The position numbers were made by a program, and so were the translations under genes. Of a DNA stretch of 64,000 nucleotides, positions 10,107-27,826 are shown piece by piece. Within the stretch, counting starts at the first letter, position 1; every line of letters starts with the position of its first letter. Location of the stretch: contig JAQBPO010000098.1 of assembly GCA_028287465.1 (NCBI GenBank), forward strand, positions 1-64,000, in the 5' to 3' direction. The notes below the pieces were generated by a model, which was given only the letters and a program-made list of their open reading frames with translations, had not been told where the DNA came from and did no database searches. The DNA is from Fibrobacterota bacterium (lineage in GTDB: Bacteria; Fibrobacterota; Fibrobacteria; UBA11236).

Positions 10107-10565
10107 TTAGTTCTCGTCGTAGGTGCGCTCAACTTCTTCACGATCCTTTTTCTCGACGATTTCATTGTTGAAATTGCGGTCGATGGGCAAAGCGTTCAAA
10201 TCCGGGTTGGTATTGTCCAAGATGTACACGGCGGAAGGATTGTCCAGCCAGCCGACGACCTCGACGTCCTTCAGGTTATGCGAGCCGCCGCTGGAAATCT
10301 TTACCTTTTCCACGGTGCCGTTGTCGACCCAGCCCTTGATGGCGCCGGAGGTCTTGATCAGCGAGCGGGCCTTGCCCTGCTTGAGGATGGTGACTTCGTC
10401 GCCGGTTCCGATATCCGCGATCTTGTCGCCTTCATCCGAAGCCTCCGACTTGTAAATGGCGGCGCCGCCGGACTTGATCCGGGTGACCGTGGTGGTCTCC
10501 GTTTTGGATCCCGCCATGGCGATGGTGGCAAAGCCGAGGAGCAGGAAAGCGATAATCTTCTTCAT
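10107..10565 (-). CDS. Exported SH3-like domain protein
   Basis: A 152-residue periplasmic or secreted protein. It starts with a clean signal peptide (MKKIIAFLLLGFATIAMAGS; cleavage after AMA). Residues about 30-95 resemble a bacterial SH3 domain: a short strand with AAIYKSEASDEGDKI, then GDEVTILKQGKARSLIKT and GAIKGWVD, the usual pattern for ligand or cell-wall binding. The C-terminus is Asp/Glu-rich with no known motif. The ATG at 10565 has AAGGAAGG 6 nt upstream, clearly better than the longer in-frame start at 10700. A TATATT-type box lies 45 nt upstream and an intrinsic terminator downstream, so it forms its own transcript. Function unknown. Confidence 0.8.
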   Translation of the reverse strand: MKKIIAFLLLGFATIAMAGSKTETTTVTRIKSGGAAIYKSEASDEGDKIADIGTGDEVTILKQGKARSLIKTSGAIKGWVDNGTVEKVKISSGGSHNLKDVEVVGWLDNPSAVYILDNTNPDLNALPIDRNFNNEIVEKKDREEVERTYDEN

Positions 10566-11055: not shown

Positions 11056-11745
11056 ATGGAAATCCTGATGAAAATTGCCAAATTCGTCGACGAGGGTGGC
11101 GCCGTCGAATACCTGATCCTGGGCTTGCTGGGATTGGGTTGTTCCGTGATTTTCGAACGGATCTGGTTCTTTTTCATCAAGTGCCGGGTCAATTCCAAGA
11201 AACTCCTGGCCGATACCACGGCCCTCATCCGCAAGGAGAAGGTGGCGGAGGCCCGCAAGCTTTGCAGCCAGACCGGGACCCCGCTGGGATTGATTCTGGA
11301 GGCCGGGATCTGGAAATACGAGCAGGCGTCCACGGCCGAGGAAATCAAGGACGCCTTGGAGGAAGTCGCCCTCAGGGAAGTCCCTCGCCTGCAGAAAAGA
11401 ACCCATTACCTGGGACTGTTGGCCAACCTTTGCACCCTGGTGGGCCTGCTTGGCACCATTTTCGGGTTGCAGGAAGCCTTTTCGGCCCTGGAATCCGCCG
11501 ACCCGTCCCAAAAGAGCAAATTGCTCGCCCGAGGCATCACCTTGGCCCTCAATGCCACCGCCTTGGGCCTGATTTCCGCCATGATATGCATGGCCGCCTT
11601 TACCTGGCTGGGTTCCAAGGCCAACCACCTGCTGGAACAAATCGATGAGACCGTGCTGCGCCTGGTGAACTTCCTGAACGCCCAACGCAAGGCCAACCCG
11701 GAACGCCGGGCCGCGCCGGGTCCCGGAGGCCAGGCGGCAGGATGA
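11056..11745 (+). CDS. TolQ/ExbB/MotA-family proton channel protein
   Basis: A 229-residue inner-membrane protein of a proton-motive-force-driven motor. Three membrane helices fit the TolQ/ExbB fold: about residues 18-42 (EYLILGLLGLGCSVIFERIW), then a cytoplasmic helical stretch, about 118-142 (YLGLLANLCTLVGLLGTIFG) and about 158-185 (ITLALNATALGLISAMICMA). The LVGLLGTIFGL block and the Thr/Ala-rich third helix are the classic signature. With the TolR-type proteins it should form a pentamer around a dimer and convert proton flow into motion of a periplasm-spanning arm. It opens the locus behind a good promoter and overlaps the next gene by 4 nt (ATGA). Confidence 0.93.
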   Translation: MEILMKIAKFVDEGGAVEYLILGLLGLGCSVIFERIWFFFIKCRVNSKKLLADTTALIRKEKVAEARKLCSQTGTPLGLILEAGIWKYEQASTAEEIKDALEEVALREVPRLQKRTHYLGLLANLCTLVGLLGTIFGLQEAFSALESADPSQKSKLLARGITLALNATALGLISAMICMAAFTWLGSKANHLLEQIDETVLRLVNFLNAQRKANPERRAAPGPGGQAAG

Positions 11746-12278
11746 GCGGATCGGTTTCGGGCCCGTCTTCGGGAGGTAAAAAGCGCGGGGGAATCACGTC
11801 CAGAGGGGGGGCGGCCGATGCCGCGCCCATCGATTTGGACATGACCCCGATGATGAACATGCTCATCATCCTGATTTCCTTCCTCGTGACCATGGTGGTG
11901 TTCACCCAGCTGGCCGTGATCAAATTCAACCTGCCCCCGTCCCAAGGAGGCGCCGGCGACGAGGCCAAGGCGCCCGATACCACGGAGCAGAAGGAGAAGC
12001 TGCCGGAGGTGGACATCACCGTGGTCATCTCCGAGAACGGCTTCCAGGTCATCGGGGAAGGCCGGAAGCTGGACCCCATCCCCAAGGGAACCAAGGGCTA
12101 TGACTTTCCCGTATTGGCCAAATTCATGAAGAAGCTGAAAGACGAATACCCCACTTCCGAAAACGTGGTGCTCCTGATCGATTCGAACATCGTCTATCAG
12201 GACATCATCACCTCCATGGATGTGATGCGCGAGCAGAAGTTCCCGAACATCCTGCTCTCCGGAGGTTTATACCAATGA
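11742..12278 (+). CDS. TolR/ExbD-family protein, first copy
   Basis: A 178-residue protein with a Gly/Ser-rich cytoplasmic N-terminus, one membrane helix (about residues 28-55, DMTPMMNMLIILISFLVTM) carrying the conserved Asp before TPMMN, and a periplasmic ExbD/TolR domain. The domain has the usual insertion near residues 75-90 (charged Glu/Lys stretch) and ends with NILLSGGLYQ. It is translationally coupled to the TolQ-like gene. The Asp in the helix is the known proton-carrying residue of the family. A pair of palindromic repeats separates it from the second copy. Confidence 0.92.
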   Translation: MSGSVSGPSSGGKKRGGITSRGGAADAAPIDLDMTPMMNMLIILISFLVTMVVFTQLAVIKFNLPPSQGGAGDEAKAPDTTEQKEKLPEVDITVVISENGFQVIGEGRKLDPIPKGTKGYDFPVLAKFMKKLKDEYPTSENVVLLIDSNIVYQDIITSMDVMREQKFPNILLSGGLYQ

Positions 12279-12284
12279 GAGAGA

Positions 12285-12390
12285 GGCAATTCGCTATGGA
12301 GTTCGCAGATGCGAACTCCACGCTCATCGCAGGGCAAAGCTATCGGCAATTCGCTAGGGAGTTCGCGAAGGAGGACTCCACGCGCATTGC
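12285..12390. repeat. Tandem palindromic repeat, locus 2 (two 46-nt units)
   Basis: Units 12285-12330 and 12345-12390 are spaced 60 nt. Each has GGCAATTCGCTA, a hairpin with arms around GGAGTTCGC / GCGAACTCC (imperfect in the second unit) and the tail ACGC followed by a GCNC/ATCGC-like end. The first unit starts 7 nt after the stop codon of the first TolR gene. The family is the same as at 2485-2585 (opposite strand) and 59326-59430. Confidence 0.8.
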
Positions 12391-12411
12391 ATGTCATAGG
12401 AGAGGACTCCT

Positions 12412-12906
12412 ATGAAACTGGGCCGCTCCAGGCGGAAAGGTGGCGCGAACGAATTCGCGAAACCGCAGATGACGTCCCTCGTGGACGTGCTGACCGTGCT
12501 CGTGTTCTTCCTGCTGAAGAATTTCTCCACCGAGGGGGATATCGTAACCCCGTCGAAGAACCTGGAACTGCCGATGAGCAGTTCCAAATCCAAACCGGAG
12601 CAGATGCTCAACATCGCCATCAGCGCCAAGCATATCCTGGTGGAGGGAACGCCCGTGGCCGTGGTGAACGAGGAGCAGGAACGCCCGGGGAACGACATCC
12701 CTGGGCTGGCCCGCTTCCTGGAGGAAAAGCGCAAGCAGACCGAGGAAATCTCCGAGTACGACAAGAACGTGCAGTTCAGCGGGAAGCTGGTCATCCAGGG
12801 CGATCGGCTCATCCCCTACTGGCTCCTGCAAAAGGTCCTGGCGACCTGCGGCAACAACGGGTACAGCAGCTTCTCGCTGGCGGTGAATAAAAAAGATGTC
12901 GACTGA
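12412..12906 (+). CDS. TolR/ExbD-family protein, second copy
   Basis: A 164-residue second TolR/ExbD-type protein. A basic N-terminus (RSRRKGG) precedes the membrane helix at about residues 20-42 (QMTSLVDVLTVLVFFLL), which has the conserved Asp in SLVDVL. The periplasmic domain follows. It is only distantly similar to the first copy, so the two were not made by a recent duplication. A motor with two different TolR-type subunits is known from the Myxococcus Agl complex and from several ExbB-ExbD-ExbD operons. AGGAGAGGACTCCT lies just before the ATG. It overlaps the next gene by 11 nt. Confidence 0.9.
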   Translation: MKLGRSRRKGGANEFAKPQMTSLVDVLTVLVFFLLKNFSTEGDIVTPSKNLELPMSSSKSKPEQMLNIAISAKHILVEGTPVAVVNEEQERPGNDIPGLARFLEEKRKQTEEISEYDKNVQFSGKLVIQGDRLIPYWLLQKVLATCGNNGYSSFSLAVNKKDVD

Positions 12907-13936
12907 CCTGAAGGAAAAGCCCAAGCCGAGGCCGCCGGACGAATCCCAGCGCGGGTACAGGGGCGGCATATTCGATCATATCGATGTCCCATCCATCACC
13001 AGTTTCACGGCCTGCCTGCTGCTGTTCATCCTGATCCTGGTGGGCATACGCTCGATCGATTACAGCAGCCTGGACAAGCCCTCCCTGGAAGACCTTTCCG
13101 ACCGCGTTTCCAAGATCATCATGCCCCTGAAGCCGCCCGGGAAGGCCCCGCCCAAGCCGGAAGCCCCCAAGGGCGGAACCGGTAGCCAACGCAGGCCCAT
13201 TCCGGGTTCCCCCGGCGACGCTTCGGCCCTGGGCCGGATCGAGAGGTCGCGCCGAACGGTCACGGAGCAGATAGGGCAGGTGCAAGAGCGCATCACCAAG
13301 GCCGCCGTGCTTTCCATCCTTTCCGGCAAGGGACCCGGGACCACCGGGAAGACGGTGGGCCGCGCGCCCGGCGGCGGGGGCGACAAGTTCGCCGGCTTCG
13401 GCGACCTGGACTCGAAACTGGACAATATCGAGGGTCTGACCAAATTCGACGGCAAGAAGGGCGATTTCAACCAGGACGGCACCCCTCCCCCCTCTTCCAA
13501 AGGGGATGACATCGCCGCCACCAGCGGACTCGATAAGATGGTAAAAGGGTTCGAAAACGCCAAAAGCGGCCTGTTGACGAAAATGGGAGTGGCGGACGCC
13601 GGAAAACCGGAAGCGATGGATCGCTCCCCTAAATTCATCGGCAACCGCAGCCCGACGGACGTGGCCACCTTCATCAGTAAAAAACAATCCATGGTCAGCA
13701 TGCTCTATGAAGAAAGGCTGAAATCGAATCCGACCCTGGAAGGCAAGGTGACCGTTGTTATGGTTATCGAAGAGGATGGCACCGTATCGGCGGCCTCCAT
13801 ATTGCGTTCCGAATCCACCTTGGATGATCCCGATTTCACGGCCGAGCTCTTGCGTCGCATCAAACGTTGGATTTTCCCGCCCTCTTCCGGCGGGCCCGTG
13901 GAGATGAAATCCCCCTTTGTATTCAGGCCGGCCTAG
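12896..13936 (+). CDS. AgmX/TonB-like periplasm-spanning protein
   Basis: A 346-residue inner-membrane-anchored protein. After a Pro-rich cytoplasmic start comes one membrane helix (about residues 35-58, SFTACLLLFILILVGIRSI). Then a Pro/Lys stretch (KPPGKAPPKPEAPK), helical and Gly-rich linkers, and a C-terminal AgmX/PglI or TonB-type domain of about 95 residues: SMLYEERLKSNPTLEG, then VVMVIEEDGTVSAASI and a tail RRIKRWIFPP. In the family this domain reaches through the periplasm to outer-membrane or wall partners. It overlaps the second TolR gene and is followed after 13 nt by the polysaccharide export gene, so the motor and the export locus are probably one transcript. Confidence 0.85.
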   Translation: MSTDLKEKPKPRPPDESQRGYRGGIFDHIDVPSITSFTACLLLFILILVGIRSIDYSSLDKPSLEDLSDRVSKIIMPLKPPGKAPPKPEAPKGGTGSQRRPIPGSPGDASALGRIERSRRTVTEQIGQVQERITKAAVLSILSGKGPGTTGKTVGRAPGGGGDKFAGFGDLDSKLDNIEGLTKFDGKKGDFNQDGTPPPSSKGDDIAATSGLDKMVKGFENAKSGLLTKMGVADAGKPEAMDRSPKFIGNRSPTDVATFISKKQSMVSMLYEERLKSNPTLEGKVTVVMVIEEDGTVSAASILRSESTLDDPDFTAELLRRIKRWIFPPSSGGPVEMKSPFVFRPA

Positions 13937-13949
13937 GCAGAGGTGATCC

Positions 13950-14915
13950 ATGGCGTATAATCCCAGCATGAAGAACCTCCGTAACGCCCATCCCGGATCG
14001 ATGATCGGAAACCCCCTTCCGAGGACGATCCGCTTTTTGATGGCGTTGTTCCTGCTCGGCGCGGCGTTCGCTCAGGCTACCGTGATAAAGTCCGGGATGA
14101 TGTTGAACATCGTGGTCAAGAACGATAAGGATCTTTCCCAGATCGTACGCGTGAACGACAACGGGACCATCGACTATCCGCTCTACCAGGACATCTCGGT
14201 GGTCGACAAGACCACCAGCGAACTGCAGGACATCCTGACCTACAAGCTGGCCAAGGTGGTCGAGTCTCCCATGGTGCTGGTGAGCGTGATGACCGAGAAC
14301 CCCATCACCCTCTACATCCTCGGCCAGGTGAAGAAGCCCGGCCTGGTGATGGTGCCGCCCAAGTCCAGCCTCCAGGAGGTCCTGCTGGCTGCGGGAGGAA
14401 GCGTCGAGACCGCGGATCTCAACCGCGTGAAGATCGTCCACAAGAACCAGGGCGATGAGAACGCCAGCTACTACGATTTGCAGAAGTTCCTGAACTCCGG
14501 CGACCTGACCCTGCTTCCCTCCCTCATGGACGGCGATCGCATCATCCTGCTCTCGTCCAAGAAATCCAAGTACGTGAAGATCCTCGGTTCCGTCCAGAAG
14601 CCCGGCTTCTACCCCATCGGCGAGTCGGCTTCGGTTTTCGATATGCTCTACCTGGCCGGTGGGCCCGCCACCGACGCCAACATGTCCAAGGTGCGGATCA
14701 TCAGCAGCCCGGGCGGCCAGAAGGCCGACTTCCTGCTGGACATGCAGAAGTTCATCGACGACGGCAAGACCGATGACCTGCCCCTGCTCTCCGAAGGCGA
14801 CATGATGATCGTGTACGCCAAGACCATAACCTGGACCAAGACCCTGGAAATGACGCGCGACATCGTAGCCCTCCTCACGGCCTGGTTCGTGATATCATCG
14901 GTGCTCAAGAAATGA
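13950..14915 (+). CDS. Wza-like polysaccharide export protein (OPX, SLBB domains)
   Basis: A 321-residue periplasmic export protein. A signal peptide (about residues 25-47, IRFLMALFLLGAAFAQA) is followed by a polysaccharide-export domain and two SLBB domains (VSVMTENPITLYILGQVKKPG near 110-130; VKILGSVQKPGFYPIGES near 210-230). A hydrophobic C-terminal helix (about 300-319, IVALLTAWFVISSVL) could cross a membrane. There is no lipobox Cys, unlike E. coli Wza, and it is shorter. AGAGG precedes the ATG at 13950 by 6 nt; a later ATG at 13968 is possible. It overlaps the Wzz/kinase gene by 4 nt, the normal partner in Wzy-dependent export. Confidence 0.9.
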   Translation: MAYNPSMKNLRNAHPGSMIGNPLPRTIRFLMALFLLGAAFAQATVIKSGMMLNIVVKNDKDLSQIVRVNDNGTIDYPLYQDISVVDKTTSELQDILTYKLAKVVESPMVLVSVMTENPITLYILGQVKKPGLVMVPPKSSLQEVLLAAGGSVETADLNRVKIVHKNQGDENASYYDLQKFLNSGDLTLLPSLMDGDRIILLSSKKSKYVKILGSVQKPGFYPIGESASVFDMLYLAGGPATDANMSKVRIISSPGGQKADFLLDMQKFIDDGKTDDLPLLSEGDMMIVYAKTITWTKTLEMTRDIVALLTAWFVISSVLKK

Positions 14916-17098: not shown

Positions 17099-18727
17099 AT
17101 GTCAGTCACCCTCCGCAATGTCGCCCGGAACATCGTCCATTTCCTGTGCTCCAATGCGGTATCCTTCGTGCTCGGAATGGCCGCTTCCGTGGTCATGGCC
17201 CGCTCCCTTGGACCCAACGACCTGGGGATCTTCCACCAGGTTTCCTGGTTCGCGGGCACGGTTTCCGTCATCATCTCCCTGGGGTTCATCACCTCGATAA
17301 CCAAGTTCACGGCCCAATTCCGATCGCAGGGCCGGGACGCCGACGTGCTCTCCGCCGTCCGTTACATCTTCTATATCGAGCTGGCCATCGCCATCGTCAC
17401 GACCATCGCCCTGCTTTGCTACGCGTCCTCCATCGCGGACCATTATTTCTCCAAGGACCAGAAGTGGATCTTCATGCTGGCCTTCATCGCGATCACCCCG
17501 GGCATCCAGACGGCCATCTTCTCCGCCACCCTCGAGGGGGCCCAGGTTTTCCGGTACCAGACCGTCCACTCCCTGACCGTCACGCCCGCGGCCCTGCTTC
17601 TCAAGGTTTACGTCATGATGAAGGGATACGGGCTCATCTCCCTCTTCGGGATCAACCTGCTCTTTTCCGTCGTCAACCTGGGGTTCTTCTATTATGCGGC
17701 ACGCCGCGAAGGCCTCCTCAAGGGATGGTTCAAGTTCAAGCCTTCCGACGGCAATTGGAAAAAGGAGATCCTGGCCTATAACAAGTCCGCCATCGGCATC
17801 CATTTCGTGGATCTGGTGGTCTGGTCCCGATCCGAGAATTATTTCCTGGGGCGCTATTGCCTCGCGCCGCAAATCGCCTATTACAACCTGGCCCAGAACC
17901 TGATCGTCAAGTTCACCGGCACCCTCCCCAATCTGATGTGGCGGATCCTCCTTCCCCTCTCAGCCGAGCACCACGGCCGAAACGAGACCGAGAAGATGAA
18001 GAAGACCTACCATCACGCCCTGCGCTATTCGGCCTTCATCGTCTTCCCGACCGTGGCCATCTGCTTCCTGGCCGCTTATGAGCTCATCGTCATCTTCTAC
18101 GGCCACGCCTATTCGGAAGCCAAGGATTGTTTCCAGATCCTGTGCGCCGGAGCATTGCTCTCATCCCTCGCCCAGCCGGGCTCCGCGGTCATCTACGCCA
18201 GCAACCGCCAGAATTTCATCCTGAAATACGGGGCCGTCCTGGCCGTCCTCAACATAGCCCTATGCTTCTGGCTGGTGCCGAAATACGGCGCCCGCGGGGC
18301 CGCGTTCTGCTATTCCTTCACCACCTCCCTGGGCGTGATCGGCGGATTCATCTTCACCACGCGCAAAATGGACCTGCCCATCCCATGGCCGGCATGGCTC
18401 AAGTGCGCGGGCGCGACCGCCCTGATGTGCGTGGCAATGTCCTGGCTGCTGAAGATCGAAACCGGCTATTTCACCCTGTTCCAGCCCACCCAGATGGTGT
18501 TGATGGATTGGACCGGCCATGATTTCGACCTCCTCCTGGGAGCGCGCGCGGTCAGGTTGATTTTCGCCTGCGCGGTTTCCGGCGTGGCCTATCTCACCCT
18601 GACGCTTTTCCTCTTCAAGCCCAAGGATGACGATCGTCGGATCCTGGCCGCCATGCACAAGTTCCTTCCCCGGCCCGTCTCCTGGTACCTGGAGCGCAAG
18701 CTGCCGGCCGGGAGCGGGATCCGTTGA
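17099..18727 (+). CDS. Wzx-type lipid-linked oligosaccharide flippase
   Basis: A 542-residue integral membrane protein of the MOP/polysaccharide-transporter superfamily with about 12-14 hydrophobic helices. The N-terminal stretch (SFVLGMAASVVMARSLGPNDLGIFHQVSWF) is typical of Wzx proteins. It would flip undecaprenyl-linked repeat units across the inner membrane. The position between the Wzz kinase and the glycosyltransferases supports this. The C-terminal 40 residues are charged and cytoplasmic. Confidence 0.9.
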   Translation: MSVTLRNVARNIVHFLCSNAVSFVLGMAASVVMARSLGPNDLGIFHQVSWFAGTVSVIISLGFITSITKFTAQFRSQGRDADVLSAVRYIFYIELAIAIVTTIALLCYASSIADHYFSKDQKWIFMLAFIAITPGIQTAIFSATLEGAQVFRYQTVHSLTVTPAALLLKVYVMMKGYGLISLFGINLLFSVVNLGFFYYAARREGLLKGWFKFKPSDGNWKKEILAYNKSAIGIHFVDLVVWSRSENYFLGRYCLAPQIAYYNLAQNLIVKFTGTLPNLMWRILLPLSAEHHGRNETEKMKKTYHHALRYSAFIVFPTVAICFLAAYELIVIFYGHAYSEAKDCFQILCAGALLSSLAQPGSAVIYASNRQNFILKYGAVLAVLNIALCFWLVPKYGARGAAFCYSFTTSLGVIGGFIFTTRKMDLPIPWPAWLKCAGATALMCVAMSWLLKIETGYFTLFQPTQMVLMDWTGHDFDLLLGARAVRLIFACAVSGVAYLTLTLFLFKPKDDDRRILAAMHKFLPRPVSWYLERKLPAGSGIR

Positions 18728-18757: not shown

Positions 18758-20035
18758 ATGGAAGTCGTTTTCATCGATTCCGAACCGCCCGACGCCGCCG
18801 GCGGAGGCATCCGCACCTACCTCCGCCTTGCCTTGGAGGCCTGCCGGGAGGCCGGCCTCGCCGCCCGAATCTATTCCCATAATCCAGGCGCCTATCCACA
18901 TGAAAGGGCCTCCCCCATCGGCCGCCGGCCATGCCTGCGCCGGCCCCTGCGCGGTTTGGCCTACCGCATGGGCTACCAGGAGAACGTGCTTTGGGAGCAT
19001 GCCCGTTGGCTGGATTCGGAATTGCAGGCCGGGGACGGGCCGGGCCGGGTCTACGAGTTCTGCGACTTCCTGGGGTACGGCTTTTTCGCCTTGCGGAATC
19101 CCGCCCTGCGCGACCGATGCATCCTGCGCGTGCATACCCCCAATTTCCTGGTGGCTTCGGAGCCTTCCGGGCTGTGGGCCCGGTGGGCCGCCCGCCTGGG
19201 CGCATGGCGCGAACGGGATTGCCTCGAGCGCGCTGCGCGCATCACCGTGCCGTCCGCCGAATTCGTGAAGGAAAAGCTTCCCTGGCTCACGGCATGGACG
19301 CACGTGCCCAATCCCTTGCCTCCGGAAATGCCCGGGGCCCCCTTACCGCCGGAGGTACCGGAGGCGATACCCGCCCTGGCGGCCGCCTCTGGCCTGGCCG
19401 GCCAGCAGGATGCGGATTGGCGCGCCGCCGATGAGGATCCCGTGGCCGTCGCGGAACGCAATGCCCCCCGGCCGACCCGGATCGAACCGGATCGTTTCCT
19501 CTATCTGGGAAGGGTGGAAGAACGGAAAGGGGTGCTCGTACTGGTGCGTGCCTTCCTGCGCCTGGCCGCGGAACGCCCCTATTGCAGCCTCACCTTGGTG
19601 GGCGGGGCCGCGCCCGGTCCCTATTCCGCCTCGGTGCGGTACCTGATCGAATCCCTGCCGCCGGCCCTAAGGCCCCGGGTGACCTGGGAATCCCCCTGCG
19701 CCCCGGATGCGCGCCCAGCGCTGTTCCGGCGCTTCACGGCCTTGGTGGCGCCGTCCTTATGGGAGAACAGCCCATACGTCTATTTCGAAGCCATGGCCGC
19801 CGGCCTCCATTGCATCGGTTCCGCGACCGGTGAAATGAAGGCCGTGGCGGCGATCACGGGATCCTTGACGGCCCGCCCCGGGGATGAGGAGGATTTGCTG
19901 AGGGTATTGAGGGCCCATTGCATGGGAGAAGGAAAGAAGGCTTTGCGGGCCCAATCCGGCTATCTCCGCTCCAGGCGATCCGGAATCCCAGGGCAACTGA
20001 TCGCGTCCTGGCGGGCCGCGGCGGAGGGCGCGTGA
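18758..20035 (+). CDS. Glycosyltransferase, GT4 family
   Basis: A 425-residue GT-B-fold sugar transferase. The N-terminal acceptor side has VFIDSEPPDAAGGGIRTYL with the glycine-rich turn near residue 15. The donor side has FLYLGRVEERKGVLVLVRAF (near residue 247) and VAPSLWENSPYVYFEAMAAG (near residue 331), the ExxxxxxxE-type nucleotide-sugar motif with Glu-Asn replaced around it. A stretch of low-complexity Pro/Ala (about 195-235) separates the lobes. It overlaps the next gene by 4 nt (GTGA). Sugar specificity cannot be read. Confidence 0.88.
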   Translation: MEVVFIDSEPPDAAGGGIRTYLRLALEACREAGLAARIYSHNPGAYPHERASPIGRRPCLRRPLRGLAYRMGYQENVLWEHARWLDSELQAGDGPGRVYEFCDFLGYGFFALRNPALRDRCILRVHTPNFLVASEPSGLWARWAARLGAWRERDCLERAARITVPSAEFVKEKLPWLTAWTHVPNPLPPEMPGAPLPPEVPEAIPALAAASGLAGQQDADWRAADEDPVAVAERNAPRPTRIEPDRFLYLGRVEERKGVLVLVRAFLRLAAERPYCSLTLVGGAAPGPYSASVRYLIESLPPALRPRVTWESPCAPDARPALFRRFTALVAPSLWENSPYVYFEAMAAGLHCIGSATGEMKAVAAITGSLTARPGDEEDLLRVLRAHCMGEGKKALRAQSGYLRSRRSGIPGQLIASWRAAAEGA

Positions 20036-21306
20036 AAATCGGCATCCTGTCGCGGGAATACCCCCCCTTAACCCATGTGGGCGGCATCGCCACCTATTCG
20101 GCCGCGGCCGCGGAGCTGTTGGCCCGGGAAGGCCATGAGGTCCACGTGGTATGCAACGGCCCGGAAGCGGAAGTGTCGACGCGTCGCGGGGTCACGGTCC
20201 ACCGGGTCGCCATGCTGAACCACCATTTCCCGTCCGGGCGCCTTTTCTACCCGTATCGCGCCTGGTACCGCCGGACCCTGCCCCATTACCTGGACGCCCT
20301 GACCTGGGCCCGCACCGCGGCGGCCTACCTGCGGGAAAACCTGGATCCTTCGGGCTTCGACGCCTGGGAATTCCCGGAGACCTCGGGCGAGGGCGCCTTC
20401 TTCCCCCGCCCTTCCGGCGCGAAAAAGCCCTGGCTGACCTGCCGTGTGCATACGGGTTGGATGGATGCCTACGCCGATAATCGCATCGAGCGGCGCATGT
20501 TGCTCGGCTTGCAACGCCGCGCGTGCCTTCGCGCCGACCTGGTCGTATCCCCCAGCGAATTCATGGCCGGCGACTACGTTCGCAGGATCTTGAGGCTGGG
20601 CCGCGAAGTAAGGGTAAACCGGAATCCGATCATACTCTGGAACGAACCCATCGATTGGGAGAGCAAACGTCCGGGGAACCTGCTGTACGTGGGCCGGGTC
20701 GAGCACCGAAAGGGCCTGCAGGTCCTGCTCCAGGCCCTGGACGAATTGGGTGCCGATTCGGAAGGCTTGACCTTGCGGGTGGTGGGCCACATGTATCCGC
20801 CCACCCGGGAACTTGACGTCAAATGCATTGATTTCTTCCAATCCCACAGGGACGGAAGCGCCGGTTCGGGGCGCCGGGGGTACCGCCTGGAATACGCCGG
20901 CCCCTGCGACCATTCCCTCATGCACAGGCATTACGATTGGGCCGGGGCCCTGATTCTGCCGTCCTTGATGGAGAACTACCCGTACGCGGCCCTGGAAGGG
21001 CTTTCCAGGGGGTGTTTCCTGTTGGGGAGCGACGTGGGCGGAATACCGGAAATCATCGACCGCCCCGGGCGGGGAATGCTGTTTCCGGTGGAAAACAGCG
21101 CCATCCTGGGCCGAAAAATAAGAGAATGGATTCAGCGGAATCAATCCATTCCGCAAGGGAATCAACCGGTTCGCCGGGAAGCGGAGCTTTCCGTCGACAT
21201 GAAAGACGTCGCCGCTGGAATCCGGGCGGAGTTCGCTCCGGAAGCCTGCGCTCTGCGACTTTTGGAAACCTATGGGCCAAACCTTCCGCAAAGGGATCGA
21301 GGATAG
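20032..21306 (+). CDS. Glycosyltransferase, GT4 family
   Basis: A 424-residue GT4 transferase starting at a GTG that overlaps the previous stop. Residues 1-30 (VKIGILSREYPPLTHVGGIATYS) show the normal acceptor-side start with GGIATYS. The donor side has LLYVGRVEHRKGLQVLLQAL and LPSLMENYPYAALEGLSRG, plus SDVGGIPEII. Longer in-frame versions only add coding sequence of the preceding gene, so the GTG is preferred. The 3' end overlaps the phosphoglycosyltransferase gene by 35 nt. Confidence 0.88.
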   Translation: MKIGILSREYPPLTHVGGIATYSAAAAELLAREGHEVHVVCNGPEAEVSTRRGVTVHRVAMLNHHFPSGRLFYPYRAWYRRTLPHYLDALTWARTAAAYLRENLDPSGFDAWEFPETSGEGAFFPRPSGAKKPWLTCRVHTGWMDAYADNRIERRMLLGLQRRACLRADLVVSPSEFMAGDYVRRILRLGREVRVNRNPIILWNEPIDWESKRPGNLLYVGRVEHRKGLQVLLQALDELGADSEGLTLRVVGHMYPPTRELDVKCIDFFQSHRDGSAGSGRRGYRLEYAGPCDHSLMHRHYDWAGALILPSLMENYPYAALEGLSRGCFLLGSDVGGIPEIIDRPGRGMLFPVENSAILGRKIREWIQRNQSIPQGNQPVRREAELSVDMKDVAAGIRAEFAPEACALRLLETYGPNLPQRDRG

Positions 21307-21907
21307 CGTTTACCAGGGCCTGAAACGCCTGGTGGACATCGTCGGCGCTTTGCTGGGGCTATTGGCCCTCTTCTGCACCTTCTGGCTGCTGGTCATTTTC
21401 ATCAAGATGGACTCCAGGGGTCCCATCTTCTTCGTGCAGACCAGGGTGGGCCAATACGGGCATCGCTTCAAGTTCATCAAGTTCCGCACCATGAGGGTGG
21501 GCGCGCACCTGAAGCAATGGGAACTGGACAACCTCAACGAGTCCGGCGGCATCACCTTCAAGCTCAGCAACGATCCCCGCATCACGCGCGTGGGACGCTT
21601 CCTGCGCCGCACAAGCCTGGACGAGATGCCTCAGTTCTGGAACGTCCTGCGCGGGGACATGTCCCTCGTGGGTCCGCGGCCGCCCTTGCTGCGCGAGGTG
21701 AGCCGATACAACGAGATCCAGAAGGTCCGCATGACCGTGCCGCAAGGAATGACCGGGCTCTGGCAGGTGCGGGGCCGCTCCAACCTCAAGTTCGACCAAA
21801 TGGTCGATCTGGACGTCCATTACGCCCTGCATGCATCCTTCCTGATGGACATGAAGATCCTGATGGCGACCTTCCCCACCGTGCTCCTTGGACGGGGAGC
21901 GGTTTGA
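21272..21907 (+). CDS. Initiating polyprenyl-phosphate glycosyl-1-phosphate transferase
   Basis: A 211-residue short-form phosphoglycosyltransferase (WbaP/PglC-type catalytic unit). One hydrophobic segment (about residues 17-45, RLVDIVGALLGLLALFCTFW) is followed by the catalytic domain with GPIFFVQTRVGQYGHRFKFI, KFRTM, then RRTSLDEMPQFWNVLRGDMS and LVGPRPPL. This enzyme attaches the first sugar phosphate to undecaprenyl phosphate and so starts the repeat unit. Its presence fixes the locus as a lipid-carrier pathway. The start overlaps the previous gene. Confidence 0.95.
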   Translation: MGQTFRKGIEDSVYQGLKRLVDIVGALLGLLALFCTFWLLVIFIKMDSRGPIFFVQTRVGQYGHRFKFIKFRTMRVGAHLKQWELDNLNESGGITFKLSNDPRITRVGRFLRRTSLDEMPQFWNVLRGDMSLVGPRPPLLREVSRYNEIQKVRMTVPQGMTGLWQVRGRSNLKFDQMVDLDVHYALHASFLMDMKILMATFPTVLLGRGAV

Positions 21908-21909
21908 AG

Positions 21910-22842
21910 ATGCCCCGGATAGCCCTGGCCTTGGCCACTTATAACCAGGCCGCTCTGCTCCGCCGCTTTCTGGGCAACTACCTCGAGTACGGCGCCTCGC
22001 TCATACCGCTCGTGATCGTCGACGATGGCTCGGATGATGCGACCCGGGAGGTCCTGCGGGAATCGGGAACGCATGCCAACATCACCGTGCACCGGCTCGC
22101 GCATGTGTCGGCCGCGCACGCCCGGAACCATGCCCTGAGGACGGCCGCCACCGAGTGGCTGGCATTCTCGGACACGGACTGCATCCTGGACAGGAAGTAC
22201 TTCGAAGCCCTCGCCTCGATTCCTGACCGGTTCCCCGGGACCGCCGCGGTGGAAGGGGCGGTGCGGCCCACACCCGGCCCCAAGCCTCCCTTCACCCATT
22301 CGCTCCACAATCCGACCGGCGGCACCTTCGCAACCGCGAACATGGTATTCCGCGTCCGGGACATCCTGGCGCTGGGCGGATTCGACGAGGGCTTTACCGT
22401 CAATTTCCGCGAAGACACGGATCTGGCGCTAACCATCCTCGATCGCGTGGGCGAGATCCCCTTTTGCCCGGATCTGGTGGTGGAGCATCCCCACATCCCC
22501 CGCAATTTCGCCAGCGCGCTCCGTAAGGCGTATGCGACCCAGGATCGCCTGGTACGCGCGGAAATCCGCCTCTACGGCAAACATCCCGGGAGCTACGCCA
22601 GGGTGCGCCATTATCGGGACGCGCGCGGCACCCTTTTCGCATGGTGCCGCAAATACTTCGCGCTTTACCTGAAGGAATGCCTGAGCTACCTCTTCCGGAC
22701 CCCCGGCCTGACCGCGGGCGATCGCCTCCGGGGCCTTATCCCGGCGGGCCAGGCCATGATCGTGGCGCTCCTGGAGCAGGTATGCATCGGGGCCATCTGC
22801 GTGGTACAATATGGCAAGATAAAGAGGCTCAAATCCCCGTGA
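21910..22842 (+). CDS. Glycosyltransferase, GT2 family
   Basis: A 310-residue GT-A-fold transferase: ALATYNQAALLRRFLGN at the N-terminus, VIVDDGSDDATREVL near residue 38, and the DXD-like FSDTDCILDRKYF near residue 90, then GGFDEGFTVNFREDTDLAL near residue 157. These are the nucleotide-sugar-binding and metal-binding sites of GT2. The ATG at 21910 lies 2 nt after the preceding stop; a TTG at 21904 is closer to GGGAG and would overlap the stop. A hydrophobic stretch near the C-terminus may anchor it to the membrane. Confidence 0.88.
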   Translation: MPRIALALATYNQAALLRRFLGNYLEYGASLIPLVIVDDGSDDATREVLRESGTHANITVHRLAHVSAAHARNHALRTAATEWLAFSDTDCILDRKYFEALASIPDRFPGTAAVEGAVRPTPGPKPPFTHSLHNPTGGTFATANMVFRVRDILALGGFDEGFTVNFREDTDLALTILDRVGEIPFCPDLVVEHPHIPRNFASALRKAYATQDRLVRAEIRLYGKHPGSYARVRHYRDARGTLFAWCRKYFALYLKECLSYLFRTPGLTAGDRLRGLIPAGQAMIVALLEQVCIGAICVVQYGKIKRLKSP

Positions 22843-23987
22843 GAATCCTGATCCTCTGGTCCGGCGCCGTGGTGCCCAGTTACCGCCAGTTCTTCCTGGA
22901 ATTGGCCAAGACCATGCGCGTGCGCGTCCTGGCCCCCCACCGTTGGACCCATGGCTCCACAAGCTTCGGGGACCATGACCCCGATCCTATCAGGACGGGA
23001 AGGGAAAGGGAACCGGATCCAGGGAGGGAGATCGGTTGCGAAATCCTGCCCGTGACCTACCTTCCGGAACGCAGCCCGCGATATTGGGTCCCATCCCTCG
23101 TATTCCACCTTTGGGCGTTCCGCCCGCGTTACCTCTACATCATGGACGAGATGGATCGCCCGAGCCTCGCCTGGCATGCCCTCATGGCCCGGATCGCCTG
23201 GCCGCCGGTGCGCGTCGTCAGCTACGCGCTCCAGAATCTCGCCTCGCCCAGCTACTACCGGTGGCATCACCGGCTCGCCACGCGCATCAATCAGGCCTTG
23301 GTCTCCCGGAGCATCGCCGCTTCCAGGGAAGCGGATGCGATCCTGAAGGGGAACGGCTACCGGAAACCCACCCGGGTAATCCCCCTTTGGGGTTCGGAAG
23401 CGTTCTTCTTCCCCGGCGAACCGGAGGGCAGGCTCGCCTTCCGGCGCGGCCTGGGCATACCCGGCGGCGACCTGGTCCTGGTCTATGCCGGCGGCATGGT
23501 GGAGGCCAAGGGCCTTACCCTATTGCGCGAGGTCCTTCCCCGCTTCCCCCGCTTGCGCGTGATCAGCGCCGGCAACGGGCCGCTCTCGGCCAGCCTGCCG
23601 GTGGATTCGGACGGACGGTGGATCCATCTGGGCGCCTTGGAGGGCGAAGATCTCCGCCGGCTCTACCAGGCCGGCGACTACGTCATCCTGCCTTCCCTGA
23701 CCCGGCCCCATTGGAAGGAACAGATAGGACGGTCCCTCATCGAAGGCATCCTCTGCGGATGCATCGCCCTGGGGAGCGATTCCGGGCATATTCCCGAACT
23801 CACCCTGTTCCCGCAAACCACCTTCCGGCAAGGGGACGCCGAAGCCCTGGCCGTCATGCTGGCGGGCCTGCCCCTTGCGGACGCCGGGTCCGTTCGCGAG
23901 GCCCAAGGAGCGAACGTCCGGGCCCGTTTCACCGCCGCCGCCGTGGCCCGCGCTACCACCGCCTTCCTCGCCGAGGCGGAACCGTGA
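22839..23987 (+). CDS. Glycosyltransferase, GT4 family
   Basis: A 382-residue GT4 transferase from a GTG overlapping the previous stop (GTGA). The C-terminal lobe has LVYAGGMVEAKGLTLLREVL and LPSLTRPHWKEQIGRSLIEG, then CIALGSDSGHIPEL, the usual donor-binding elements. The N-terminal lobe starts VRILILWSGAVVPSYRQFF. It continues the tightly packed cluster and is coupled to the next gene by GTGA. Specificity unknown. Confidence 0.85.
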   Translation: MRILILWSGAVVPSYRQFFLELAKTMRVRVLAPHRWTHGSTSFGDHDPDPIRTGREREPDPGREIGCEILPVTYLPERSPRYWVPSLVFHLWAFRPRYLYIMDEMDRPSLAWHALMARIAWPPVRVVSYALQNLASPSYYRWHHRLATRINQALVSRSIAASREADAILKGNGYRKPTRVIPLWGSEAFFFPGEPEGRLAFRRGLGIPGGDLVLVYAGGMVEAKGLTLLREVLPRFPRLRVISAGNGPLSASLPVDSDGRWIHLGALEGEDLRRLYQAGDYVILPSLTRPHWKEQIGRSLIEGILCGCIALGSDSGHIPELTLFPQTTFRQGDAEALAVMLAGLPLADAGSVREAQGANVRARFTAAAVARATTAFLAEAEP

Positions 23988-25063
23988 AGATCCTGTTCCT
24001 GCACCGGGACCTGCCTCCCGACACCTATACCGGAGTGGCCATCCAGGTGCACCGCCTGGCCAATGCCCTGGCCGACCTCGGCCACCAGGTTTCCGTCTAC
24101 ACCCATACCTCGCAGCCCGCAGACGCCCGCTACCGCGCGGTCCCCATCGAATTGCCTGGGCTCAGGACGGCGATGCGCGTCGCGCCTTTCCTGAAGCGTA
24201 TCTGGTATCCCCTATGGTACCGCAAGCTGGACATGGGCGGTTTCGATGCCGTCCACATCCACGGCGACGGAGGCTTCCTCACCTACCGGGGGAACTTCGT
24301 CCGCACGTTCTACGGAACGGCCGCCCTGGAATACCGGCATGCAACGAGCCTCAAGGGAAAGCTTGCCCAGGGACTCTCCTATTGGATGGAAAGGCGGGAG
24401 GCGAGACGCTGCCGCCTTACCGTGGGCATTTCGCCTCACGTCGCGGCCCACCTTCCCGGGGTCGACCGGGTGATCCCTTGCATGTTGCCGGGCCAACCCG
24501 ATCCCGCGCCCCCCCAAAAGACGCCTTTCCCGAGCCTGATATACCTGGGCTCCCAGCGTTCGCGCAAGCGCGGCGAGGAGGCCCTGGCGCTGTTCCTACG
24601 GCTAAGCAAGAACCACCCCGGCTTGAGGCTGAATTACGTGGGGCCCGAAAGGGAAATCTCCGAGCTCAAGGCCCGCCGCGAATACGCCGGCGTGGATTTC
24701 CACACCCGGTTGTCCCAGGACGAACTGGCGGGCCTCTACCGGGAAAGCTGGATCTACCTCTGCCTCTCCAGCTACGAGGGCTTCGGAGTGGGCATCATCG
24801 AGGCCATGTCCTTCTCGTGCCTGGTGGTTACCGCTCCCCATCCCGGCAGCGAATACCTGGTCCGGGACGGGGACACGGGGGTCATCTCGCCCCCGGAAAT
24901 GGCCGAGGCCCTGGTGGACCGGATCCTTAAGGACGAATCCTCCCGGAAGGAAATGGTCCGCCGAGGGCGTGAATTCTCGCGGAAGTTCTCGCCGGCCACG
25001 GTGGCGTCCTCCTACCTCGACCTCTACCGCATGGCGCAGGCCCGCACGGCAGGGTCCCCATGA
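23984..25063 (+). CDS. Glycosyltransferase, GT4 family
   Basis: A 359-residue GT4 transferase, GTG start overlapping the previous stop. Starts VKILFLHRDLPPDTYTGVAIQVHRLA; the donor lobe has LIYLGSQRSRKRGEEALALF and LCLSSYEGFGVGIIEAMSF, with EGFGVGIIE as the clear E-X7-E motif. The gene overlaps the start of the polymerase gene by 4 nt. Specificity unknown. Confidence 0.88.
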   Translation: MKILFLHRDLPPDTYTGVAIQVHRLANALADLGHQVSVYTHTSQPADARYRAVPIELPGLRTAMRVAPFLKRIWYPLWYRKLDMGGFDAVHIHGDGGFLTYRGNFVRTFYGTAALEYRHATSLKGKLAQGLSYWMERREARRCRLTVGISPHVAAHLPGVDRVIPCMLPGQPDPAPPQKTPFPSLIYLGSQRSRKRGEEALALFLRLSKNHPGLRLNYVGPEREISELKARREYAGVDFHTRLSQDELAGLYRESWIYLCLSSYEGFGVGIIEAMSFSCLVVTAPHPGSEYLVRDGDTGVISPPEMAEALVDRILKDESSRKEMVRRGREFSRKFSPATVASSYLDLYRMAQARTAGSP

Positions 25064-26634
25064 TGAAGACCGTCTTCTTCAAATACCTCATCATCCCGTT
25101 CCTGGCCCTGATCGGGTACGGATTCGTCTACCGTTTGATGCATATTCCCACGCGCGCGGAAACGGCGATCTTCTGCATCGCCTTCTTCCTCATCCCGACC
25201 CTCAAATACCCGAAGGTGGGCGTGTACTACCTTTTCTGTCTGCCCTTGTTCATCCCGCTCTTCCGCCGCATGTACTACCTCGTCAGCGAACGTCCGGCCC
25301 TGGATTACCTGATGCTGATTTCGGACGGGGTGATGGGCGGCCTGATTCTGGCCCTGATACTGCTTTGGATCCTGAACAAGGAACGATCCAAGGACATATT
25401 CTCCATACTGATCATGGTCTACACCCTGCTCCTTTTCATCAAGGTTTTCCTGGGCACCCAGTCGGATCTGCAAGGAGGCCTTTACGGATTCAAGTTCAAC
25501 GGGCTCTACGTTTTCTTCTTTTTCGCCGGAAGTTACGTCCTCACCACCTTGAAGGAGACGCGCGCCATATTCGGCTTCGCCTCCTGGCTGCTGTTCTTCA
25601 CCGCATTGTACGGAATCAACCAGATCCTTTTCGGGTTCACTTCATTCGAGCAGAAATGGCTCGACTCCATCACCTTCACCACCCTCCGGATCGATGGCGT
25701 CGTCCGCCCATTTTCCACCTATGTATCCCCGGCGGCCATGTCGGACGGAATGACCATCCTTCTCGTCCTCGGGATATACTGGATGCTCTGCAAGGGCCGG
25801 AACGTCAAGCCTTTCGGCCTCATGCTTTCCGTCTCGTCAATCGCGCCGATCATGATAGCGACCGTGCGCACGAACTGGCTCGCCGCCGTCGCGGGGATTT
25901 TCTTCTACACCACCTACCTGAGGCTGAAGAAGACCTGGATGCAGTGGACCCTGATCATCGCGATGATCGGAGGGCTCGGGTTCTATTCGGCCAAGGGAAG
26001 CTCCGGGAGCGGAGGCTCCGGCGCGCAGAACGCGGCGATCTCGGCCAAGCTCAACAAGCGAAGCGCCAACCTGACCCAGACCATGATCACCAATCGCACG
26101 GCCGCGCTGGCCAATCCGCTCCAGGAATACAGCGTCCAGAAGCGCATGGAAACCTGGACGGGCATCCTGTATACATCCTTGGTCTTCCCATTCGGAAAAG
26201 GCCAGGGCACGACCGGTTACGCACACAGCTATTATTTCCTTGTCCTGGGCGAGATCGGTTACCCCGGGCTGATTTGCTTCCTCGCCATCGTCTTCGTCGG
26301 GTTCTACCGGGGCATGAAGGTGATTTCCGGAACCAAGGATAAGGATGTGGCGGAATTGATGCGCCTGATGGTCACCATCATCTTCATGCTATCCGTCCTG
26401 AACCTGACCGGCACCCATCTTCATACCCCGCCGGGGGACATCTTCTTCTGGTTCACCATGGGTTGCATCTCCCGGTTCTACCGCGCCATGCGGGAGGAGG
26501 CCCGAACCGCGGCGGCGGCGGAATCCGCCTTGTCACGGATGGGCGAGGATCCGGCTTCGCTCCTTCCGAGGGGGGATGGCCTACCGACCGTGGAAGCGCC
26601 GTTTTCCTTTCCAGGCGGCACGCGTGCCGACTGA
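25060..26634 (+). CDS. Wzy-like polymerase / O-antigen ligase family membrane protein
   Basis: A 524-residue membrane protein with about 11-12 hydrophobic helices (from FLALIGYGFVYRLM to the block around 430-455). A periplasmic loop of about 70 residues (about 310-375) carries the Ser/Gly-rich SSGSGGSGAQNAA and VQKRMETWTGIL, as in the Wzy_C-type proteins. In a locus with flippase, Wzz and initiating transferase but no other candidate, it is best read as the polymerase that joins repeat units in the periplasm. A ligase function cannot be excluded. Confidence 0.82.
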   Translation: MMKTVFFKYLIIPFLALIGYGFVYRLMHIPTRAETAIFCIAFFLIPTLKYPKVGVYYLFCLPLFIPLFRRMYYLVSERPALDYLMLISDGVMGGLILALILLWILNKERSKDIFSILIMVYTLLLFIKVFLGTQSDLQGGLYGFKFNGLYVFFFFAGSYVLTTLKETRAIFGFASWLLFFTALYGINQILFGFTSFEQKWLDSITFTTLRIDGVVRPFSTYVSPAAMSDGMTILLVLGIYWMLCKGRNVKPFGLMLSVSSIAPIMIATVRTNWLAAVAGIFFYTTYLRLKKTWMQWTLIIAMIGGLGFYSAKGSSGSGGSGAQNAAISAKLNKRSANLTQTMITNRTAALANPLQEYSVQKRMETWTGILYTSLVFPFGKGQGTTGYAHSYYFLVLGEIGYPGLICFLAIVFVGFYRGMKVISGTKDKDVAELMRLMVTIIFMLSVLNLTGTHLHTPPGDIFFWFTMGCISRFYRAMREEARTAAAAESALSRMGEDPASLLPRGDGLPTVEAPFSFPGGTRAD

Positions 26635-27826
26635 GGGGACCGGATCCATCGGCAAGCCTGGAATACCGCGTAAACGCATTACCGTCATCGGTCATCCCTT
26701 ATCGGCCGGGGAAAACCGTCTCGCCTTCATGGGGTGGCAGCGCCACCGGGTCGATTTGATCCTCCCGCGCGCCTGGAATGCCCGCTCGCTCGGGCACGCA
26801 TACGCCTTCAATTGGGACGCGCCCGCCGGCATTGACGAGGGAACGGCCGCCTCCGCCGGGCCGGCCATGCACCCCCTGGACACCCGCGCTTCCGGGCGCA
26901 ATTCGCTTTTCCTATGGGTGGGACTTGGACCCCTCTTGCGTCGCCTGAGGCCGGATATCATCTACTGCTGGGAAGAGCCCTGGTGCCTTTCCACCTGGCA
27001 GGTCCTGCGCGCGGCGCGCCGAATGGGCATCCCCGTGGTGTTCTATACCGCCGAGAACCGCCCGAAGCGGCTTCCCTGGCCATTCCGGATCCTTGTCCGG
27101 GCGGCTTTCCGCGCTTGTCCCGCATGCGTCGCCCCTACGGAGGAGATCGCGGCGCGCGTCAAAGCCTGGGGCTATGGTGGGCGGATATTCGTCATACCCC
27201 TGTGGATCCGGCCCCGCCGCGAGGTCAACGCCGATGCCGCGGAAAAACGCCTGGTCTACGTGGGCCGGTTGATTCCCCTCAAACGGGTCGACCTGCTGGT
27301 GGAATGCCTGGCCCTCCTCCCCGGGTTCAGGCTCCGCATCATCGGGGACGGGCCAGAGAGGCTCCGGCTGGAGACCTTGGTCAAGGCCCTTGGCCTGGGA
27401 ACCAGGGTCGAGTTCCGCGGGCATGTCGACAATGGCCGGCTCGAGGACAGCCTGGAAGGCGCCTCCGTCCTGGTCCTGCCCACGGGGGAGAATGCCCGTC
27501 AGGCGGAGCAGTTCGGCAAGGCCGCCATAGAAGGCGTATCCTGCGGGTTACCCGTGCTCGCCAGCAGGACCGGGAACCTGGCCGATCTGGCCAGGATATT
27601 CCCCACCCTATCGGCCATGGATATGGACGACCCGGAACGGATGGCCGAAGCCGTATCCGGCGTGTTCCGCGCCTTCCCGGATAAGTCCCGACTCGCGGCC
27701 TCCCGACGCTTGGCCCAGGAAATATACGGACCGGATGCGGCGGCAAGGAGCCTCGAAGACGCCTTCGCGACCCTCGCGGCATCCCGGGCCGGTTCACCCG
27801 CCCTTCCGGCCGAGGCGGCCCCGTGA
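26624..27826 (+). CDS. Glycosyltransferase, GT4 family
   Basis: A 400-residue GT4 transferase. The donor lobe shows LVYVGRLIPLKRVDLLVECL and LPTGENARQAEQFGKAAIEG, then CGLPVLASRTGNLADL. The N-terminal lobe begins RITVIGHPLSAGENRLAFMG. A GTG at 26624 is chosen because AGGCGG precedes it; an ATG at 26576 is in frame and would overlap the polymerase gene by 59 nt. It is coupled to the GT9 gene by GTGA. Confidence 0.82.
   Translation: MPTEGTGSIGKPGIPRKRITVIGHPLSAGENRLAFMGWQRHRVDLILPRAWNARSLGHAYAFNWDAPAGIDEGTAASAGPAMHPLDTRASGRNSLFLWVGLGPLLRRLRPDIIYCWEEPWCLSTWQVLRAARRMGIPVVFYTAENRPKRLPWPFRILVRAAFRACPACVAPTEEIAARVKAWGYGGRIFVIPLWIRPRREVNADAAEKRLVYVGRLIPLKRVDLLVECLALLPGFRLRIIGDGPERLRLETLVKALGLGTRVEFRGHVDNGRLEDSLEGASVLVLPTGENARQAEQFGKAAIEGVSCGLPVLASRTGNLADLARIFPTLSAMDMDDPERMAEAVSGVFRAFPDKSRLAASRRLAQEIYGPDAAARSLEDAFATLAASRAGSPALPAEAAP

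Follow-up and report, generated by a model that had tools for sequence, protein, structure and literature searches.

The core complex of the Myxococcus Agl/Glt machinery, comprising AglRQS together with GltG, GltE, GltD and GltC, was described by Luciano et al. in 2011 as a functional unit already present in one member of the Fibrobacteres and of unknown function outside gliding bacteria (PMC3169522). The same authors argued that this core complex alone is insufficient to produce motility, and that most of its carriers are not documented gliders. A related use of the motor is known from the spore-coat pathway of Myxococcus, where Agl and the NfsG arm act on the Exo polysaccharide exported by a Wza-like protein, and Agl-Nfs moves this polymer on the spores (PMC3858216). 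Here we examine a gene row in a 64,000-nt stretch of contig JAQBPO010000098.1 (positions 1 to 64,000, henceforth the window) from a member of the Fibrobacteria, in which genes for one TolQ, two TolR and a TonB-like arm directly precede those of a Wza/Wzc-type polysaccharide exporter. With a rough probability of 0.55, we favor the reading that these four genes encode a proton-driven motor with a TonB/GltG-type arm, i.e. a variant of the Agl/Glt/Nfs core complex that would be dedicated to the polysaccharide of the locus and probably moves or organizes the polymer after its export.

An earlier note on this DNA had called a tolQ, two tolR genes, an AgmX/TonB-like gene and, 13 nt further on, a wza gene leading into a polysaccharide locus; all of these were recovered where it had placed them, and the gene row reads as follows:

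10107..10565, - strand: gene for a small secreted SH3-like protein, divergent from tolQ ('SH3-like' being a reading of the sequence, without a database match)
11056..11745, + strand: tolQ, TolQ/ExbB-family proton-channel scaffold of the AglR-type clade (PF01618 MotA_ExbB, 87.7 bits)
11742..12278, + strand: tolR1, TolR1 in the AglQ position, with the motif TPMMN (PF02472 ExbD, 48.1 bits)
12279..12411, no strand: pair of REP/BIME-like (repetitive extragenic palindrome/bacterial interspersed mosaic element) palindromes in the tolR1-tolR2 gap
12412..12906, + strand: tolR2, TolR2 in the AglS position, with the motif TSLVD (PF02472 ExbD, 53.0 bits)
12896..13936, + strand: agmX, AgmX/GltG/TonB-like arm (NF033768, 75.3 bits; NF033760, C-terminus, 53.6 bits; TonB_C, 27.2 bits)
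13950..14915, + strand: wza, Wza-like outer-membrane polysaccharide export (OPX) protein with a signal sequence, Poly_export, two SLBB domains and a C-terminal helix
14912..17065, + strand: wzc, Wzc-like chain-length regulator with a bacterial tyrosine (BY) kinase domain (TIGR01007, 185.7 bits)
17099..18727, + strand: wzx, Wzx-like flippase (PF13440, 85.5 bits)
18758..29031, + strand: glycosyltransferases and a weak Wzy candidate of the polysaccharide locus

The genes are tightly packed: tolQ and tolR1 overlap by 4 nt, tolR2 and agmX by 11 nt and wza and wzc by 4 nt, agmX and wza lie 13 nt apart, and the only larger interval is the 133-nt gap between tolR1 and tolR2. The OPX protein, the Wzc BY-kinase and Wzx are all encoded at the locus, which with its glycosyltransferases resembles the Wzx/Wzy-Wzc-Wza systems of the group 1 capsule type, the BY-kinase corresponding to their polysaccharide co-polymerase; what sets it apart from them is the placement of genes for a proton motor and its arm ahead of wza in a single row. 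The Wzy candidate (25060-26634) scores 22.5 bits against Wzy_C, short of the 31.7-bit cut-off. Known Wza structures are matched by the Wza-like protein over ~150 residues. Of the features that mark OPX structural class 1 or 3, an outer-membrane-spanning C-terminal helix in the protein itself or a beta-barrel partner, a C-terminal helix is present; the structure model is poor (mean predicted local distance difference test score 43.5) and unusable.

The family placement of the motor carries the first part of our reading. Three Myxococcus-type genomes contain only two TolQ genes each that are followed by both TolR types of the window set; one of these sets is AglRQS by its gene order, protein length and AglQ D28, and the other is a paralogue, which we take to be MXAN_3003. 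A profile of the window TolQ recovered AglR at 113-136 bits and the paralogue at 141-145 bits, as against at most 79 bits for the other TolQ/ExbB proteins of these genomes. In a tree of 91 TolQ proteins, the Fibrobacterota TolQ-TolR-TolR sets, AglR and the paralogue form one clade (support 99/96; its long-branched row L054 is poorly placed) that excludes the ordinary TolQ/ExbB proteins of the three Myxococcus-type genomes and of the window genome itself. In position, TolR1 corresponds to AglQ and TolR2 to AglS, and a TolR2 profile scores AglS-type proteins far above other ExbD proteins; PDB sequence searches with TolR1 and TolR2 returned nothing relevant. A phylogeny against Agl, Exb and Tol sets had been chosen beforehand as the check on the earlier note's comparison with the AglRQS motor, and its outcome, with one TolQ and two TolR in the AglR-AglQ-AglS order, upholds that comparison.

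Within the phylum, a concatenated TolQ, TolR1 and TolR2 tree joins the window genus to polysaccharide-linked sets (93/93) and separates receptor-linked sets from them (100/100); the TolQ-only tree had weakly joined the window genus to a receptor-linked set (90/70), a grouping that the concatenated tree did not recover. The receptor-linked sets, found in the other class or classes of the phylum (L117, L118, L120-L132), are of TolQ-TolR-TolR-TonB type, mostly followed by a large TonB-dependent receptor, which itself bears a TonB_C domain and a carboxypeptidase-like domain. They share the motor family, the TolR pair with its Asn/Asp difference (see below) and a TonB-type arm with the window set, and differ from it in having the receptor downstream in place of wza. 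The TolQ set of G010, a genome of the same order and another family, was considered as a further polysaccharide-linked case and rejected, as the trees put it in or beside the receptor-linked clade and the wza locus of that genome is without a motor. The window genome has a second TolQ-TolR-TolR-arm set (L047 1238-13872, on G000:C96), which is conserved in the Fibrobacteria, with OmpA-like and TPR (tetratricopeptide repeat) proteins upstream and mreB-, mreC- and mrdA-like genes downstream; it is probably the core complex reported in 2011 for a Fibrobacteres member.

The second line of evidence is the conserved linkage of motor and exporter. The order from the small secreted protein through tolQ, tolR1, tolR2, agmX, wza, wzc and wzx to the glycosyltransferases is kept in all five congeners (6/6 with the window), whose TolQ proteins are 85-93% identical to that of the window; obg lies beyond the block in four of the five and was unmatched within the stretch read in the fifth. 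The window TolQ profile also gave strong matches in the other class or classes of the phylum, where we read 21 neighborhoods. Nineteen of these were readable, in that agmX is complete and the contig continues beyond it, and in 18 of the 19, from seven further families, wza directly follows agmX at a distance of about -70 to +40 nt (taking the starts of the longest open reading frames). Since this order is kept both in the congeners and in 18 of the 19 more distant loci, it is more than chance, and the link between motor and polysaccharide genes is conserved well beyond the window genome, across eight families. The checked genomes carry 2-8 OPX genes each, and the one linked to the motor is always of the ~300-aa type; thus it is a single specific OPX gene to which the motor is tied.

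In these other Fibrobacterota the genes form a long operon, starting with two putative outer-membrane proteins, two TPR proteins (~1160 and ~1000 aa) and a small periplasmic protein and continuing with tolQ, tolR1, usually a STAS gene, tolR2, agmX, wza, wzc and glycosyltransferases. The motor, transducer and exporter that are encoded at separate loci in the Myxococcus Agl-Nfs/Exo pathway thus share an operon in the greater part of the phylum examined; unlike that pathway, the system here is not known to have a role in sporulation. The STAS-domain gene, which stands between tolR1 and tolR2 in most of the loci L097-L119 and is absent from the window locus, has no counterpart at that place in the Agl system; its position inside the motor operon suggests motor regulation. 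A literature search, with most subscription journals and preprints outside it, gave no report of the motor-wza linkage or of the TolR asymmetry described next.

Examination of the two TolR families revealed a sharp difference at the proton-binding aspartate. TolR2 retains it in 46/46 sequences, whereas TolR1 has it in none of 45, with asparagine in 42, serine in two and glycine in one. These counts span polysaccharide-linked, receptor-linked and C96-type sets and one Myxococcota metagenome-assembled genome (MAG), and, as the sequences are related, the cases are not independent events. In the Myxococcus-type sets both AglQ and AglS keep the aspartate, as do the four other ExbD proteins of the window genome. 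The natural asparagine of TolR1 is the very change that, as D28N in AglQ, abolishes motor function in Myxococcus (PMC3858216), and in the E. coli Tol structure only one of the two aspartates touches the TolQ threonines (PMC12215075). The asymmetry makes a clear prediction on the number of protonation sites that a 5:2 motor needs, and is relevant to the idea that AglQ and AglS work hand over hand (PMC9120999).

The arm encoded by agmX has one N-terminal transmembrane helix (~33-51), a long linker and a TonB-type C-terminal domain (~252-344). The earlier note had likened it to AgmX (GltJ); its AgmX/PglI C-terminal domain does score above the cut-off (75.3 bits against 40), while as a whole the protein is nearer GltG than AgmX/GltJ and is without the extra domains of either, including the FHA part of GltG. 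Against full-length GltG it reaches 53.6 bits, over the C-terminus (cut-off 650), and the corresponding arm of the genome G167 up to 112.6 bits. In a fold comparison with the PDB, TonB C-terminal domains come out on top (E ~1e-3), with a low-confidence model usable only around the C-terminal domain. TonB and TolA are coupled to their motors by a Ser-x3-His helix motif, and this motif is present in the arms of 19/19 loci of the other class or classes.

The outer parts that begin the long operon are also present in the window genome. Profile searches located them on another contig (C76:155483-164863) in the same order as elsewhere, with the small protein last, the TPR proteins scoring 622 and 577 bits and the outer-membrane proteins 182 and 187 bits. 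The operon therefore appears to be split in the window genus, with the motor and exporter in one half and the putative transducer in the other. The TPR profile also scores 156-160 bits against the TPR protein encoded at the Myxococcus glt locus. Large TPR proteins, and an arm that may be of GltG type, join the subunit set and the TolQ clade as points of likeness to the Agl/Glt core complex. In G003 the small-protein gene of the split-off outer half has a STAS-domain gene (L202 11214-11645) ~5 kb downstream of it; none was seen at that place in the window genome (G000).

Beyond the observed gene content, family placement, linkage, Asn/Asp asymmetry and presence of the outer parts, we infer from the sequences that the parts may form one complex working in four steps. 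First, protons would pass at the TolQ-TolR interface by way of the TolR2 aspartate only, which is proposed as the sole proton site because TolR1 has asparagine. Second, proton flow would move the TolR1-TolR2 pair, within the surrounding TolQ scaffold, and with it the arm that crosses the periplasm. Third, the TonB-type domain of the arm may engage the TPR proteins, the small periplasmic protein and the two putative outer-membrane proteins. Fourth, once the polymer has left Wza, these outer parts would pull it or arrange it at the cell surface, much as Agl-Nfs does with the Exo polymer. We favor action after export because in Myxococcus Agl moves the polymer once exported and is not needed for its export (PMC3858216). 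A further, independent precedent for such a pairing is the GltG/TPR cassette that adjoins a Wza exporter and mglBA in two Myxococcus-type genomes (see below). The idea of the earlier note that such a motor moves or exports surface polysaccharide is for the same reason better supported in its first half than in its second. A more far-reaching formulation, which we offer tentatively and consider doubtful, is that throughout the phylum the Wza/Wzc exporter would include, as a built-in component, a dedicated one-aspartate TolR1-TolR2 motor that uses the proton-motive force to drive polysaccharide along the outer membrane or across it.

Several observations weigh against the reading of a dedicated polymer-moving core complex. 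In the window genus the outer parts are unlinked to the motor, and because of this their partnership with it is drawn from the other families. For the two putative outer-membrane proteins, neither Pfam nor NCBIfam has a matching family and two Myxococcus-type genomes gave no match, the comparison with GltA/B/H being indirect. The arm of the window genus has Ala-x3-Phe in place of Ser-x3-His in 5/5 cases; true GltG is likewise without the motif. In G167, the sole exception among the 19 readable loci, the motor is on one contig and wza-wzc at the start of another. In G010 the flank, which includes a homologue of the small secreted protein beside wza (45% identity), is followed by wza, wzc, wzx and glycosyltransferases without motor genes between; hence, export genes can exist without an adjacent motor, although this assembly is 79% complete and the motor may be elsewhere in the genome. 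Finally, in Myxococcus the polymer reaches the surface without Agl (PMC3858216).

This last point also speaks against the strongest of the alternatives, in which export itself would be powered or gated by the motor, with the arm pushing Wza or an outer-membrane partner open or ratcheting the polymer outward. TonB-type arms are generally known to open outer-membrane proteins (for the motor, see PMC12215075), and the window genus keeps the motor with wza and wzc while the outer parts sit elsewhere; because the tie to wza is thus tighter there than that to the transducer, direct action on export retains a certain probability. Yet Wzx/Wzy-Wzc-Wza export is generally known to work without such a motor, and G010 has the same export genes with no motor adjacent, so that we regard direct export as unlikely.

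That the locus encodes a gliding machine, with the exported polysaccharide as its slime, is less probable still. Its core genes are of the Agl/Glt type, and a similar cassette adjoins mglBA and a Wza exporter in two Myxococcus-type genomes (L203 2871-16908 and L214 4525-18515), in which mglBA, two TPR proteins, a small protein and a GltG-like arm stand in a row that continues with a cyclic-nucleotide-binding protein, a barrel-like protein and a Wza-type protein. We assign mglBA because the mglA product matches MglA structures over its full length, and by its size, neighbors and mglBA the exporter is probably that of the WzaB/WzpB (MXAN_1915/1916) region; MXAN_1915 was termed orphan-like by Islam et al. 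(PMC7310880). This cassette resembles the Fibrobacterota operon in its TPR-TPR-small-GltG-like order adjoining an OPX gene, and differs in having no TolQ/TolR genes and in its cyclic-nucleotide-binding and barrel-like partners; a comparable order, this time with a TolQ-TolR-TolR motor inside it, occurs in a Myxococcota MAG. However, the putative outer-membrane proteins of our system have no match in two Myxococcus-type genomes, the core complex is argued not to suffice for motility (PMC3169522), and the literature search gave no motility report for this group. A gliding role of the window machine is possible but unsupported. Of the earlier note's suggestion of a proton-driven polysaccharide motor at this place, the lineage and the linkage hold, although the genes for the larger share of the presumed outer parts lie at another place in the genome; its interpretation is in this sense partly supported.

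We consider it improbable that the set is a TonB-type uptake energizer standing beside polysaccharide genes by happenstance, the ordinary alternative that the earlier note had itself raised. The arm does end in a TonB-type domain, and the nearest sister group of the window set is of Ton type, with TonB and a TonB-dependent receptor; a Ton-like mechanism is therefore not far removed, and we keep ordinary Ton uptake as a rival. On the other hand, neither the window set nor its flanks contain a receptor, the concatenated tree splits this set from the receptor-linked ones, and the co-location with wza is kept across eight families. A Tol-like machine for envelope stability, co-regulated with capsule synthesis and without a direct role for the polymer, is very improbable in spite of the TolQ/TolR homology and of TPR proteins that score to the YbgF of tol-pal, as tolB and pal were not seen in the locus, the conserved neighbors are export genes, and the window TolQ is below every curated TolQ or ExbB cut-off (against Tol-Pal itself, TolQ 57.7 bits vs 221 and TolR 20.8 vs 127.3).

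The Agl/Glt core complex is here tied phylum-wide to one specific partner, the Wza/Wzc polysaccharide exporter. This suggests that the core complex has long acted on exported polymer and that gliding might be one later use of it, and the compact operon offers a system for testing the role of the core complex.

Among the remaining features of the locus, the small secreted protein has no Pfam or NCBIfam match and is 79-92% identical in the congeners, in all of which it forms a conserved flank of the locus. A promoter-like match over the agmX-wza junction (13934-13961) was discarded as being at chance level (one found vs 2.2 expected). The gap between tolR1 and tolR2 is not empty: its palindrome pair (12279-12411) has a fold z of -4.8, and the REP/BIME-like palindromes have 42 partial matches in the genome at E<=10, ~20 of them below 0.02. 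In two congeners tolR1 and tolR2 lie nearer each other or overlap at the palindrome site.

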